A stretch of DNA of 20,689 bases from IMG/VR virus record IMGVR_UViG_3300034082_001123, positions 1 through 20,689 of that record, one strand, 5' to 3'. Position 1 is the stretch's first letter. Every line of letters starts with the position of its first letter. The translations under genes and the position numbers were made by a program. The notes beneath the pieces are model-generated. The model was given only the letters and a program-made list of their open reading frames with translations. It was not told where the DNA came from and searched no databases. The stretch comes from a virus. Of the stretch, positions 2 to 3,760 are shown piece after piece.

Positions 2-211
2 CCACTGCGTCGCTGCGTTACCGGCGAAGGCGTGAGGGTCGTCGAGCAGGCACTCGCGAGCCAGTTTGCGCATGAGTCCCTTCGATGCCGCTGCGAGCTT
101 GCCTGTCGGTGTTATGATGCCAGCCGCTTGTGATGCGGTGAGCTTGCCCTTCCGAGCGTTGAGCCATTCCTCGGTTCCTTGCTCAAGGTTGACGATGTGG
201 TAATGGTTCAC
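2..211 (-). CDS. YqaJ/lambda-type recombination exonuclease, N-terminal fragment
   Basis: The reading frame starts with GTG at 211 and runs open to the left edge, so only about 70 N-terminal residues are visible. Translation begins MNHYHIVNLEQGTEEWLNAR and continues with GKLTASQAAGII. The pattern G-T-x-E-W-x-x-x-R followed by K-x-T-A-S is the opening signature of the YqaJ viral recombinase family, which degrades one strand of a DNA duplex to leave single strands for an annealing protein. The catalytic Asp, Glu and Lys of the family lie beyond the window. The GTG overlaps the stop of recT (GTGA) and is preceded by AGGAGG at good spacing, one of the few strong Shine-Dalgarno motifs in the window; this decides the start. 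Position directly after recT fits the usual exonuclease-annealase pairing. Confidence 0.85.
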   Translation of the reverse strand, partial: MNHYHIVNLEQGTEEWLNARKGKLTASQAAGIITPTGKLAAASKGLMRKLARECLLDDPHAFAGNAATQW

Positions 212-984
212 GCTTCGCCTCCTTCCTGTGCAGGCTCCATCTCTATCGCTGGCACCATAGCTGCGAACGGGTTGATTGCCTCGGCACGAACTGTCGGTGT
301 GACGTTGCGAGCCTGTACGAACTCACGATCTTCGTCGGTGCGAATCGCCTCTTGAATCTCAGGTGAGAGCGGGAGCCATTTCGACGCGCGACGAAACACT
401 GTCTTTTTCGCCATCTCGTCGAAGTCGGAGATCCACGGTCCAGAGTTGCCAGCACGTGAGCGCTTGCGAATGCCTTCGACCTCGTCACGAGTCATGACCT
501 CACACTTTTCTGACCCGTCCTTGAATGTCACGATGACATAAAATGCGTATGCGTTACCGCGAGGCGCTTTGTAGTCAACGACATGCTGTTCGATCTTGCC
601 GCGGTTGACTACGAACTGATCTTGTTCGCAGACCTTGTCGGCATGGATGCTCGTCACGGTGCCGCTGCGCATGACCAGCTCGGCGATTCCCTTATAGTCG
701 AGAATGAGCGTGCATTCTTTTCCGTAGGGGATCAAGTGAGCGCGGCGACCGTCTGGCTCGATGCCGAGCGCGCTGAGATCCAGCAGGCAACGCATGAAGC
801 TTTCCGGTGTGCAGTCCTGCAGCTTCGGCGTGCGTGTTAGCGCAGTGATAGCGACCCGTGCGAAGCGATCAACGCTCAGGTGCTTTGGTAGAGCCAGAGC
901 GAACTGGTTCTTGACGTTCTCCTCGGTTAGCAGACCTTTGAGAGTCCGTGGCTTATTGGCGATTTGTGTATTTTCTGTTGTCAT
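208..984 (-). CDS. recT: RecT family single-strand DNA annealing protein
   Basis: This 258-aa protein is a RecT family annealase. RecT proteins coat single-stranded DNA and anneal complementary strands, working with a partner exonuclease in phage recombination or end repair. Family landmarks are visible: CLLDLSALGIEPDGRRAHLIPYG-type central region near residues 66-90, the LILDYKG segment, and the highly typical GPWISDFDEMAKKTVFRRASKWLPLSPE stretch in the C-terminal third (quoted in parts: GPW, DFDEMAKKT, FRRASKWLP). Length is normal for the family. I chose ATG at 984; an in-frame TTG at 1035 would add 17 residues but overlaps the upstream micropeptide. No Shine-Dalgarno motif is seen before the ATG. 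Its stop overlaps the GTG of the exonuclease gene, so the two are probably translationally coupled. Confidence 0.95.
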   Translation of the reverse strand: MTTENTQIANKPRTLKGLLTEENVKNQFALALPKHLSVDRFARVAITALTRTPKLQDCTPESFMRCLLDLSALGIEPDGRRAHLIPYGKECTLILDYKGIAELVMRSGTVTSIHADKVCEQDQFVVNRGKIEQHVVDYKAPRGNAYAFYVIVTFKDGSEKCEVMTRDEVEGIRKRSRAGNSGPWISDFDEMAKKTVFRRASKWLPLSPEIQEAIRTDEDREFVQARNVTPTVRAEAINPFAAMVPAIEMEPAQEGGEA

Positions 985-1109: not shown

Positions 1110-1460
1110 CTAAAAAGGCACGTCATCAAAATCATCATCGGTAGTATTAGCCGCTTGCCGTGGCGCTGCGCTAGGTGCCGAGCTGCTGCCGAACTCCAGA
1201 GTCTTACCATTGCCGATGTAGATCTTTGTAGCCTTAGCCTGTCGTTCTTCCTTCGTTTGTTGCAGCGCGATATTGTGAGTGTTTTTGTAATCGTCGATCT
1301 CTCTGCGCTCGGTGAGGTCGCAGTTTAGGTATGCTCCCTTTTCCCCGATATAGACCGCAGGGTGAGGGATGGCAACATGCAAGCTTCCGTCCTTCGCTGT
1401 GAATTTGCGTGCGCCTGGTATCTTCAAGAGATCAATTTTTAGTGGGTGTATTATGCTCAT
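1110..1460 (-). CDS. Putative single-stranded DNA-binding protein with SSB-type acidic tip
   Basis: This 116-aa protein ends in DDDFDDVPF (residues 108-116), which closely matches the acidic, Pro-Phe-ending tip that bacterial SSB proteins use to dock partner enzymes. It is preceded by a Ser/Ala/Pro-rich linker (residues 91-107), again as in SSB. The N-terminal body of about 90 residues (SLHVAIPHPAVYIGEKGAYL, then NCDLTERREIDDYKNTHNIA) is beta-rich but shorter than a canonical SSB OB fold, so it may be a divergent phage version. The start ATG at 1460 overlaps the upstream stop (ATGA). Co-transcription with recT and the exonuclease supports a role in DNA recombination or replication. The function is inferred from the tail and context; no whole-length family was recognised. 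Confidence 0.65.
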   Translation of the reverse strand: MSIIHPLKIDLLKIPGARKFTAKDGSLHVAIPHPAVYIGEKGAYLNCDLTERREIDDYKNTHNIALQQTKEERQAKATKIYIGNGKTLEFGSSSAPSAAPRQAANTTDDDFDDVPF

Positions 1461-1648
1461 TTTGTTAGTCTTGGTTTTGTTTCGATTTTGAGTTCGCCGG
1501 TCAGAACGCGGTCAATGCCTGAGAAGATCAGAGCCTTGGCAACGCTTGCCGGTTTTGTGTTTGCACGCTTGGCAGCAGCGCGTAGCTGTGCAAGCCCATC
1601 TTTGCCCAGCGCGATAGTGACCGCGCCTCGTTTGTTTGTTGGTATCAT
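1457..1648 (-). CDS. Small ribbon-helix-helix-like DNA-binding protein
   Basis: A 63-aa basic protein leads the recombination operon. After a short basic N-terminus it shows a beta-strand-like GAVTIAL (residues 8-14), an amphipathic helix DGLAQLRAAAKRAN (17-30) and a second helix KPASVAKALIFSGIDRVL (32-49). That strand-helix-helix order and length fit CopG/Arc-type ribbon-helix-helix proteins, which bind DNA as dimers at tandem or inverted short repeats, often in front of their own gene. Such repeats lie just upstream (1676-1689 and 1749-1853). The ATG at 1648 is preferred over a TTG at 1702 because the longer N-terminus would overlap the likely promoter. Its stop overlaps the start of the SSB-like gene (ATGA). 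Fold assignment is by eye. Confidence 0.6.
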   Translation of the reverse strand: MIPTNKRGAVTIALGKDGLAQLRAAAKRANTKPASVAKALIFSGIDRVLTGELKIETKPRLTK

Positions 1649-1659
1649 GTGACGCGCAA

Positions 1660-1689
1660 AGAATAGTCGATTCCCTTGTAAATTGTAAA
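1660..1689 (-). promoter_or_regulatory. Candidate sigma70-type promoter of the recombination operon
   Basis: On the minus strand TTTACA (1689-1684) and TATTCT (1665-1660) are separated by 18 bases. They match the -35 and -10 consensus at 5 and 4 of 6 positions. Transcription would begin around 1653, only a few bases before the ATG at 1648, giving a nearly leaderless message. The -35 box lies inside a tandem heptamer, TTTACAA twice (1689-1676), that could serve as an operator. Confidence 0.35.
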
Positions 1690-1748
1690 GCACAAATTGC
1701 AATTATTTTCACTTTGTCGATTTTCCTTTATTCTACAAGGGTTGCAGC

Positions 1749-1853
1749 GCGGGAAATCTGAAATTCCCGTGCGGGAAATCCGCGGGAAATCCTATGCAAA
1801 CCCTATGCAAACCCTATGTTGCCATACGTCTGCCATACGTCCGATTTACGTCC
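1749..1853. repeat. 11-bp-phased array of short tandem repeats
   Basis: On the plus strand GCGGGAAATC(T/C) starts at 1749, 1771 and 1782; the 1749-to-1771 step is exactly 22 bases. It is followed by TATGCAAACCC at 1793 and 1804, a truncated TATGTT at 1815, GCCATACGTC(T/C) at 1821 and 1832, and GATTTACGTCC at 1843. Every step is 11 bases except the 6-base remnant at 1815-1820. Three different 11-mers are therefore each duplicated in tandem and kept in register, roughly one helical turn apart. The intervening unit at 1760-1770 carries an inverted partial copy (ATTCCCG). This resembles binding-site arrays for oligomerising DNA-binding proteins or origin iterons. Confidence 0.8.
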
Positions 1854-1864
1854 GATGATACCGG

Positions 1865-1887
1865 TCATGCTCGATATCTGAGCTTGA
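1865..1887. repeat. Operator-like inverted repeat
   Basis: TCATGCTC (1865-1872) and GAGCTTGA (1880-1887) are inverted copies matching at 7 of 8 positions around a 7-base centre GATATCT. The size and symmetry fit a binding site for a dimeric regulator. No regulator for it can be named from the window. Confidence 0.45.
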
Positions 1888-1957
1888 ATTTACCCGATTC
1901 TCTGGTATTATTCTCGCGAACTTGCGAAACGCAGCATTGCGCGTAGTAAGTGGGATT

Positions 1958-2013
1958 CCCGCCCCGACTGAAAGTTGACTTCATGCCATTGCGTAAGCTA
2001 GGTCGGGCGCGGG
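1958..2013. repeat. Long inverted repeat, possible RNA stem-loop
   Basis: CCCGCCCCGAC (1958-1968) pairs with GTCGGGCGCGGG (2002-2013) over 11 bp with a single-base bulge, closing a loop of about 33 bases. The loop itself holds a smaller imperfect inverted repeat (TGAAAG with CTTCA, 1969-1983). It is GC-rich and without a T tract, so it is not a terminator. It could be a structured leader, an origin hairpin or a packaging or regulatory element. Confidence 0.4.
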
Positions 2014-2087
2014 TTTCCATTCTCAGCAGATCCACCATGCCTCTCAACGATGCACACTTGGTGGATATTTTTTCACAAAACTGATAG

Positions 2088-2118
2088 AAAAAAACCCCGC
2101 CAGTGGGTGCTGACGAGG
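2088..2118 (-). terminator. Intrinsic terminator ending the late transcription unit
   Basis: On the minus strand CCTCGTCAG (2118-2110) pairs with CTGGCGGGG (2103-2095) over 9 bp including two G-U pairs, with a 6-base loop and then seven T residues (2094-2088). This is a standard rho-independent terminator in the direction of all the structural genes, about 95 bases after the stop at 2213. In the plus direction there is no T tract, so it is one-way. Confidence 0.85.
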
Positions 2119-2122
2119 TTGA

Positions 2123-2212: not shown

Positions 2213-2464
2213 TCACGCTTTGCTAGTAGCGTCCGAGTAAGCATTGCACTGCTTGCCGTTGAGCTTGATTTTTCGACTCTTCAATTTGCCAAGTTTGACC
2301 AGCTTTTTCAGCTCCCACCGGCTGGAGTCATAGGTGGTATATAGCCCAAGCTTTTTCAATTTTTCGATGTATTGTTCAGTCGTGAATTCGTCATCGCGGA
2401 GCTTCGGCATGACTAGATCAGCCATCTGCATCATGAGCTTTTCTGCATTGCCTATTTTTTTCAT
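2213..2464 (-). CDS. Small winged-helix-like protein, last gene of the late unit
   Basis: An 83-aa basic protein starting ATG at 2464, one base after the stop of the phosphoesterase gene. Residues 26-77 read like a small winged helix-turn-helix: a helix FTTEQYIEKLKKLG, a second helical stretch SSRWELKKLVKLGKL that would be the recognition helix, and a beta wing SRKIKLNGKQCNAYS. Such a fold would bind DNA, possibly as a late regulator or as part of packaging, but neither role is shown. It is followed by the intrinsic terminator at 2088-2118. A longer in-frame extension upstream to 2584 would run through the phosphoesterase gene and is not favoured. Confidence 0.7.
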   Translation of the reverse strand: MKKIGNAEKLMMQMADLVMPKLRDDEFTTEQYIEKLKKLGLYTTYDSSRWELKKLVKLGKLKSRKIKLNGKQCNAYSDATSKA

Positions 2465-3262: not shown

Positions 3263-3760
3263 TTATACGGTAAAAGTGATCCAATCGCGAACGTCCTTGA
3301 TGTTCCGAGTTCTTATCATGACGCAGCCGCCATCGCGCGATCCCTTAGCGTTGGTATTGCCTTCGATTGTCTGAAAATTGCCAGCTTTTGTCGGTGCTGA
3401 AATAGCAATGCCGCAATGGCTCGTAGAGTGCAATGAGAAAATGCCGATTGCCTCGCCTGTGTGGCTCCTGCGCGTCTTTGTGCTGCGATCCTGAGTGAGA
3501 CTCCATTCGTCGAAGCCGTAAGCCGCTGCGGTCTTTGGACGCGCAAATGTCAGTTTGCTTCCATGTTCCTTTTCCCATCGTGCCATTGCCTCGCGAACTA
3601 CGAAGCAAATAAACGCTGCGCACCATGGCCAGCCAGTGCCATCGAGTGACGTTGCCGCTTGGTATTGTTGCACGCGTTTGCCCGTGTTACTGTAGCCGAT
3701 TTCCTTCGTGCCGATTTCCTCGGTGGCAACCTCCCTGATTTGTTCGCTGAGCGTTTTCAT
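3263..3760 (-). CDS. Endolysin-like cysteine/histidine peptidase (CHAP or NlpC/P60 type)
   Basis: A 165-aa single-domain protein. GWPWCAAFICF places a candidate catalytic Cys at 47 at the start of a helix; TSHCGIAI gives a candidate His at 115; and TIEGNTNAKGSRDGG supplies the acidic or Asn third residue near 133-135. This order Cys, His, Glu/Asn is that of papain-like CHAP and NlpC/P60 amidases, which cut peptide cross-links or the sugar-peptide bond of peptidoglycan. The GNT...G.R.G stretch is common in small phage peptidases of this kind. There is no signal peptide, so it would rely on a holin. Location two genes after a holin-like gene supports a role in lysis; a virion-associated muralytic role is the alternative. 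The 77-base gap upstream is the largest in this part of the operon. Confidence 0.8.
   Translation of the reverse strand: MKTLSEQIREVATEEIGTKEIGYSNTGKRVQQYQAATSLDGTGWPWCAAFICFVVREAMARWEKEHGSKLTFARPKTAAAYGFDEWSLTQDRSTKTRRSHTGEAIGIFSLHSTSHCGIAISAPTKAGNFQTIEGNTNAKGSRDGGCVMIRTRNIKDVRDWITFTV

Follow-up and report, generated by a model that had tools for sequence, protein, structure and literature searches.

Described systems that resemble the locus

Several described systems share features with the phage locus reported here. The half-sites of Arc-type RHH operators lie about 11 bp apart. AbiF, which acts in a type III toxin-antitoxin system, is a relative of the ancestors of Cas13. Some phage replication origins are located inside the initiator gene and consist of 11-base iterons plus an AT- or purine-rich element. 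Winged-helix response regulators such as ArcA typically bind tandem 11-bp repeats, and the sites of ArcA comprise two to five direct repeats with centre-to-centre distances of 11 or 22 bp (PMC3798270). RCd22, which is an abiF RNA, acts in trans to neutralise AbiF (PMC12373285).

What our locus has in common with operators of the ArcA, PhoB and OmpR type (PMC3798270) is a set of direct repeats, spaced by 11 or 22 bp, that vary in number and lie beside promoters. It differs from these in that several unrelated repeat sequences stand side by side, and in that they reside in a phage. We treat the resemblance to ArcA-type sites as an analogy and not as membership of that class.

Organisation of the repeat array

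The window analysed is a stretch of 20,689 nucleotides (IMG/VR virus record IMGVR_UViG_3300034082_001123, positions 1 to 20,689). It shows no nucleotide match to known phages, and no tRNA genes were found in it with ARAGORN. An array of 11-base repeats, arranged in modules C, B and A, fills the space between two divergent predicted promoters, which we call P_early (for the RHH-like, SSB-like and RecT genes) and P_sRNA. The features of the region are as follows.

208..981, minus strand: RecT gene (PF03837, E 3e-45)
1110..1460, minus strand: SSB-like gene, matching two PHROG families of unknown function only
1457..1648, minus strand: RHH-like gene, the first gene of the early operon
1660..1689, minus strand: putative early promoter (TTTACA 1689, N18, TATTCT 1660), a consensus match only, conserved in relatives
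1686..1746, minus strand: conserved AT-rich stretch CTTGTAGAATAAAGGAAAAT, between module C and the early promoter
1749..1792, minus strand: module C, on the early-operon side, with GCGGGAAATCY sites (plus strand) at 1749, 1771 and 1782
1764-1769: inverted module C site TTCCCG, which completes the palindrome TTCCCGTGCGGGAA at 1764-1777
1793..1818, no strand assigned: module B, two copies of TATGCAAACCC plus TATG
1820..1863, plus strand: module A, two copies of TGCCATACGTC, then CGATTTACGTC and CGATGATACCG, adjoining the small-RNA promoter
1884..1911, plus strand: putative small-RNA promoter (TTGAAT 1884, N16, TATTAT 1911), a consensus match only
1918..2075, plus strand: predicted structured small RNA with two or three hairpin domains and a T-run at its end
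2031..2066, plus strand: abiF RNA motif (RF03085), followed by a T-run at 2067-2074
2093..2120, minus strand: putative intrinsic terminator of the late operon
2213..2464, minus strand: gene for a small winged-helix protein on the far side of the region, a candidate regulator

The SSB nature of the 1110..1460 product rests on the reading of its sequence, both in the initial annotation and by us. In other relatives, the small-RNA promoter is of the TTGACA-N17-TATCTT type, again as a consensus match. A translated leader running across the early promoter was considered and rejected upon inspection by eye, as the frame is not kept (a stop occurs in the relative L009).

The initial annotation had described three different 11-base units, each in tandem duplicate, and a check against the sequence found all of its unit positions to be correct. 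The unit GCGGGAAATCC occupies 1771-1781 and 1782-1792, and an additional near copy (GCGGGAAATCT) stands at 1749, precisely 22 bases upstream of 1771. TATGCAAACCC is found at 1793-1803 and 1804-1814, and a partial third copy follows at 1815-1818, while TGCCATACGTC is found at 1820-1830 and 1831-1841. The single off-register step reported for the window is likewise present, measuring 17 bases between modules B and A. The duplicates are real, but the array comprises four units in three modules rather than three units. The features that had been missed are CGATTTACGTC at 1842-1852, followed by CGATGATACCG at 1853-1863, and the palindrome in module C (TTCCCG-N2-CGGGAA).

These repeats constitute the strongest 11-base periodicity in the window. 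The best lag-11 self-match scores (33/44 and 57/90) exceed every value obtained from 100 first-order Markov shuffles, whose maxima were 26 and 43, and none of the other lags from 4 to 40 came close to the lag-11 score in the real window sequence. In the related loci too, repeats are most often spaced at lag 11 (28 places), and near lags that are not multiples of three, such as 8, 10, 13, 14 and 16, give 0 to 4 places. Searches with degenerate ACGTA and ATTTCCCG tandem patterns returned many 11-base arrays in other phages, both intergenic and in ORFs, although they provide no control for over-representation because the pattern itself requires tandem copies.

Each module has its own roughly 11-base lattice, with internal steps of 11 (or 22) bases, or of 10 or 11 bases for module A. 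The steps between modules are 12 and 17-19 bases, so that the 11-base phase is lost at these points and no single lattice spans the whole array.

Gain and loss of modules among related phages

Upstream regions were read for 20 contigs in which the RHH gene was found. Across approximately 18 related phage contigs, modules have been gained or lost in near-whole helical turns. Modules A, B and C occur together in the window and in L002, L006, L009 and L016. Module B is present in the arrays of the window and four relatives and is missing from others, and many relatives carry A and C without B. Modules also occur alone. Module A stands by itself in L147 and in members of a second phage group (L231, L235, L242, L254 and L263), where it is still kept although the early-promoter flank and the first genes differ; in L147, L231, L242 and L254 it is accompanied by the small RNA. 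Module B forms a ten-copy array of its own in L039/L040, and L012, L017 and L140 have C but neither A nor B; the strict C pattern was seen in this phage family only. L012 and L017 contain additional units (GCGCGAAANTT) at a spacing of roughly 11, and in them the small RNA is replaced by a tRNA-like gene (with tRNA Rfam hits). L020 has kept A and lost the small RNA, and L140 has kept the small RNA and lost A. The gene order is kept in L003/L004, L005 and L007/L008, which have one degenerate C site and no B. The comparison suggested in the initial annotation, namely whether the 11-base phase is kept in related phages while the sequence drifts, gives a positive answer within modules.

A more distant RecT relative (L070, 50% identity) carries GACGTATGGC repeats at 3704-3751 that are 11-spaced with GACGT; their location near an integrase-like gene is suggestive.

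Spacing within module A and the distances from the modules to the predicted promoters are regular. Across 18 distinct A arrays, each of the 58 steps measures 10 or 11 bases, and the exact distance from the last A site to the -35 element is preserved in 20/20 cases whatever the unit number (27 bases for the TTGAAT type, 11/11; 19 bases for the TTGACA type, 9/9), with the caveat that these distance and spacing counts are not independent, given that the records share ancestry. On the other side, in the relatives that have it, module C starts about 99-100 bp away from the early-promoter motif GACGCGCAAAG, or 89 bp, one turn less, in two records.

These observations bear on whether the array is a neutral product of repeated local slippage in 11-base steps, as had been offered in the initial annotation. 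Exact duplicates and a variable number of units are what slippage would leave behind. Moreover, part of the perfect identity of the window's C units is private to this phage, which has two identical copies where relatives read ...CGGGAAATCTGCGGGAAATCC.... Slippage is likely the manner by which units arise and vanish, but it leaves unexplained both the segregation of units by module and the fixed distances to the two predicted promoters. Nor does it account for A being conserved in two phage families whose flanks otherwise differ, or for same-unit substitutions shared between phages, as in the second B unit of L009 and L016. The fixed distances, the cross-family conservation of A and the shared substitutions argue that units are retained under constraint, and we consider a purely neutral origin of the array improbable.

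A proposed modular operator

On the basis of sequence comparisons, we regard the array as somewhat likely to be a modular regulatory region, or operator, between divergent promoters. The multi-site operator named in the initial annotation is favoured in its general form by the divergent predicted promoters and the fixed distances, and the direct repeats at about 11 bp near predicted promoters are as found in operators of the OmpR/PhoB type. We infer that proteins bind the array and that both promoters are active, and the candidate binders named below are put forward on the same footing. P_early would drive the RHH-like, SSB-like and RecT genes from the minus strand, and P_sRNA would drive, from the plus strand, the small structured RNA that ends in an abiF antitoxin-like hairpin. 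Each module would present head-to-tail binding sites one helical turn apart, such that proteins could sit along the same face of the helix and bind cooperatively. Module A would serve P_sRNA and module C would serve P_early, with B as an optional insert. Units would be gained and lost by 11-base duplication and deletion, while selection would maintain helical phasing and the spacing to each promoter. If correct, this would represent a compact and evolvable regulatory design in which unrelated types of 11-base sites are swapped in near-whole helical turns, and the natural module variants are ready for testing.

Relation to replication origins

The initial annotation had found an iteron-like replication origin attractive, in which case the phage initiator would recognise the 11-mers as its iterons, and the AT-rich stretch would be an unwinding element. 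The AT-rich neighbour and the early recombination genes adjoining the array are consistent with such a role. So too are the TATGCAAACCC-like (B-type) 11-mers that form iterons within the initiator genes of the unrelated phages L161 and L163. However, B and most of C are missing from contigs with the same gene order (L003/L004, L005 and L007/L008), and A and B are missing from L012 and L017, whereas origin iterons would be present in all members with the same replication system. The window stops before the initiator gene, and therefore the evidence on this gene comes from relatives. In these, a gene of the PHROG replication initiation families lies about 4-5 kb downstream and has its own 11-base iterons inside, followed by purine-rich repeats in the copy that was read closely (L009). 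The module sequences do not track the initiator's own iterons.

Origins inside initiator genes resemble the array in their 11-base iterons, and B-type sequence recurs there. The array differs from them in that it lies between genes, is optional among the relatives and stands apart from the initiator-gene iterons. Given the natural deletion variants and the separate initiator-gene iterons, we rejected an origin as the main function. An essential origin at this position appears unlikely from these sequence comparisons, and we have little confidence in the array being a replication origin. B may nevertheless have to do with replication, since 11-mers of its type serve as origin iterons in unrelated phages. 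It could, for instance, be that iterons for the initiators of other phages accumulate in the array, which would then act as a decoy.

The 11-base iterons of the initiator genes (L009:10544-10640, L161, L163 and others) are very different in sequence between phages, and purine-rich (or pyrimidine-rich) repeats follow them in several of these genes.

Candidate binding proteins

The RHH-like protein yields a structure model of modest confidence (pLDDT 69). A fold search with this model gave no significant hit, and most of its weak matches were RHH proteins (PutA, ParG, Arc and CopG). As with operators of the Arc, Mnt and CopG type, a small RHH-like gene adjoins the array, and module C consists of a palindrome plus half-sites. 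The initial annotation had offered an operator for this protein as one possibility, and autoregulation through the whole array would fit the half-site spacing of Arc-type operators. It would also fit the invariance of the presumed DNA-contacting strand (RGAVTIALG) and the finding that nearly every record with the C palindrome has this RHH gene downstream, an association that shared descent also predicts. Unlike in such operators, module A is common to phages with different RHH proteins: it is identical beside proteins of the HVKMPLE or SVKMPIA type, and lies at P_sRNA. We conclude that module A lacks specificity for any one RHH protein and, on account of A, we rejected the neighbouring RHH-like protein as the binder of the whole array. 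In addition, B occurs without this RHH protein, and three C-bearing loci, which are short or cut, show no RHH in the available stretch. An operator of the RHH protein extending over all three modules is therefore unlikely in our judgement, although C is possibly bound by it.

The product of the gene at 2213..2464 is confidently modelled as a winged helix (pLDDT 82), with matches to PadR-like winged helices (best E 4e-3). Our guess is that winged-helix proteins, of either host or phage, bind module A.

The repeats might instead act via intrinsic DNA curvature and not through sequence-specific binding. With our own unvalidated wedge model, the calculated bend amounts to 53 degrees across 105 bp. 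This places the array at the 93rd percentile of the window, which is not exceptional, and the A units are without phased A-tracts. Since specific sequences are conserved across families, we consider curvature a very improbable explanation.

An orphan abiF-like RNA

Under the modular operator that we favour, module A would control a small RNA whose fold (-57.9 kcal/mol, z = -3.6) is predicted over 1918..2075. The abiF motif within it scores 40.9 bits with the RF03085 covariance model, for which the gathering cut-off is 37. Most relatives exceed this cut-off, and four score below it (29-32). Three of the ten abiF stem pairs have changed on both sides (2-32, 3-31 and 7-23), and pair 4-30 exhibits one both-side change plus G-U variants. 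In a comparison of 12 variants that carry the array, pairing is lost in just one variant-by-pair cell across the ten pairs, and four pairs show compensatory variation. A second conserved hairpin domain (1918-2030, plus strand, CCCGCCCCGAC...GTCGGGCGCGGG) precedes the abiF motif, and some relatives have a different 5' domain in the small RNA.

The abiF core (GCCUCUCAACGAUGC) and stem are shared with the RNA of the AbiF type III toxin-antitoxin system (RF03085; RCd22, PMC12373285), but the phages differ in lacking the toxin gene. In cell genomes, the core immediately precedes an Abi_2 gene; the family is present in 21 of 27 genomes, and at most loci with a gene at this place, that gene starts 9-36 bases past the core. 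No adjacent Abi_2 gene of this kind accompanies the phage RNA. An Abi_2 (PF07751) gene was found in 0/24 related records including the window, all of which may be fragments, and in none of at least 66 further viral records with the abiF core, many of which are fragments. The phage abiF RNA is in this sense an orphan, and such orphan antitoxin-like RNAs are present in at least 66 other phage records.

Given that RCd22 acts in trans (PMC12373285) and that the phage RNAs are orphans, it is plausible by analogy that they serve as anti-AbiF decoys, an idea that we did not find stated in any paper in a limited literature search. If our reading of the locus is right, the idea that free-standing copies of a bacterial toxin-antitoxin RNA serve phages in silencing AbiF becomes testable. 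More tentatively, the phased array could act as the switch that controls an RNA cassette for phage counter-defence, governing both this AbiF antitoxin mimic and the early genes.

A recurrent intergenic hairpin-like element (GGGGCGCGACTGTAACGCGC) was also observed before small genes in the early operons of L002, L003, L007 and L040.
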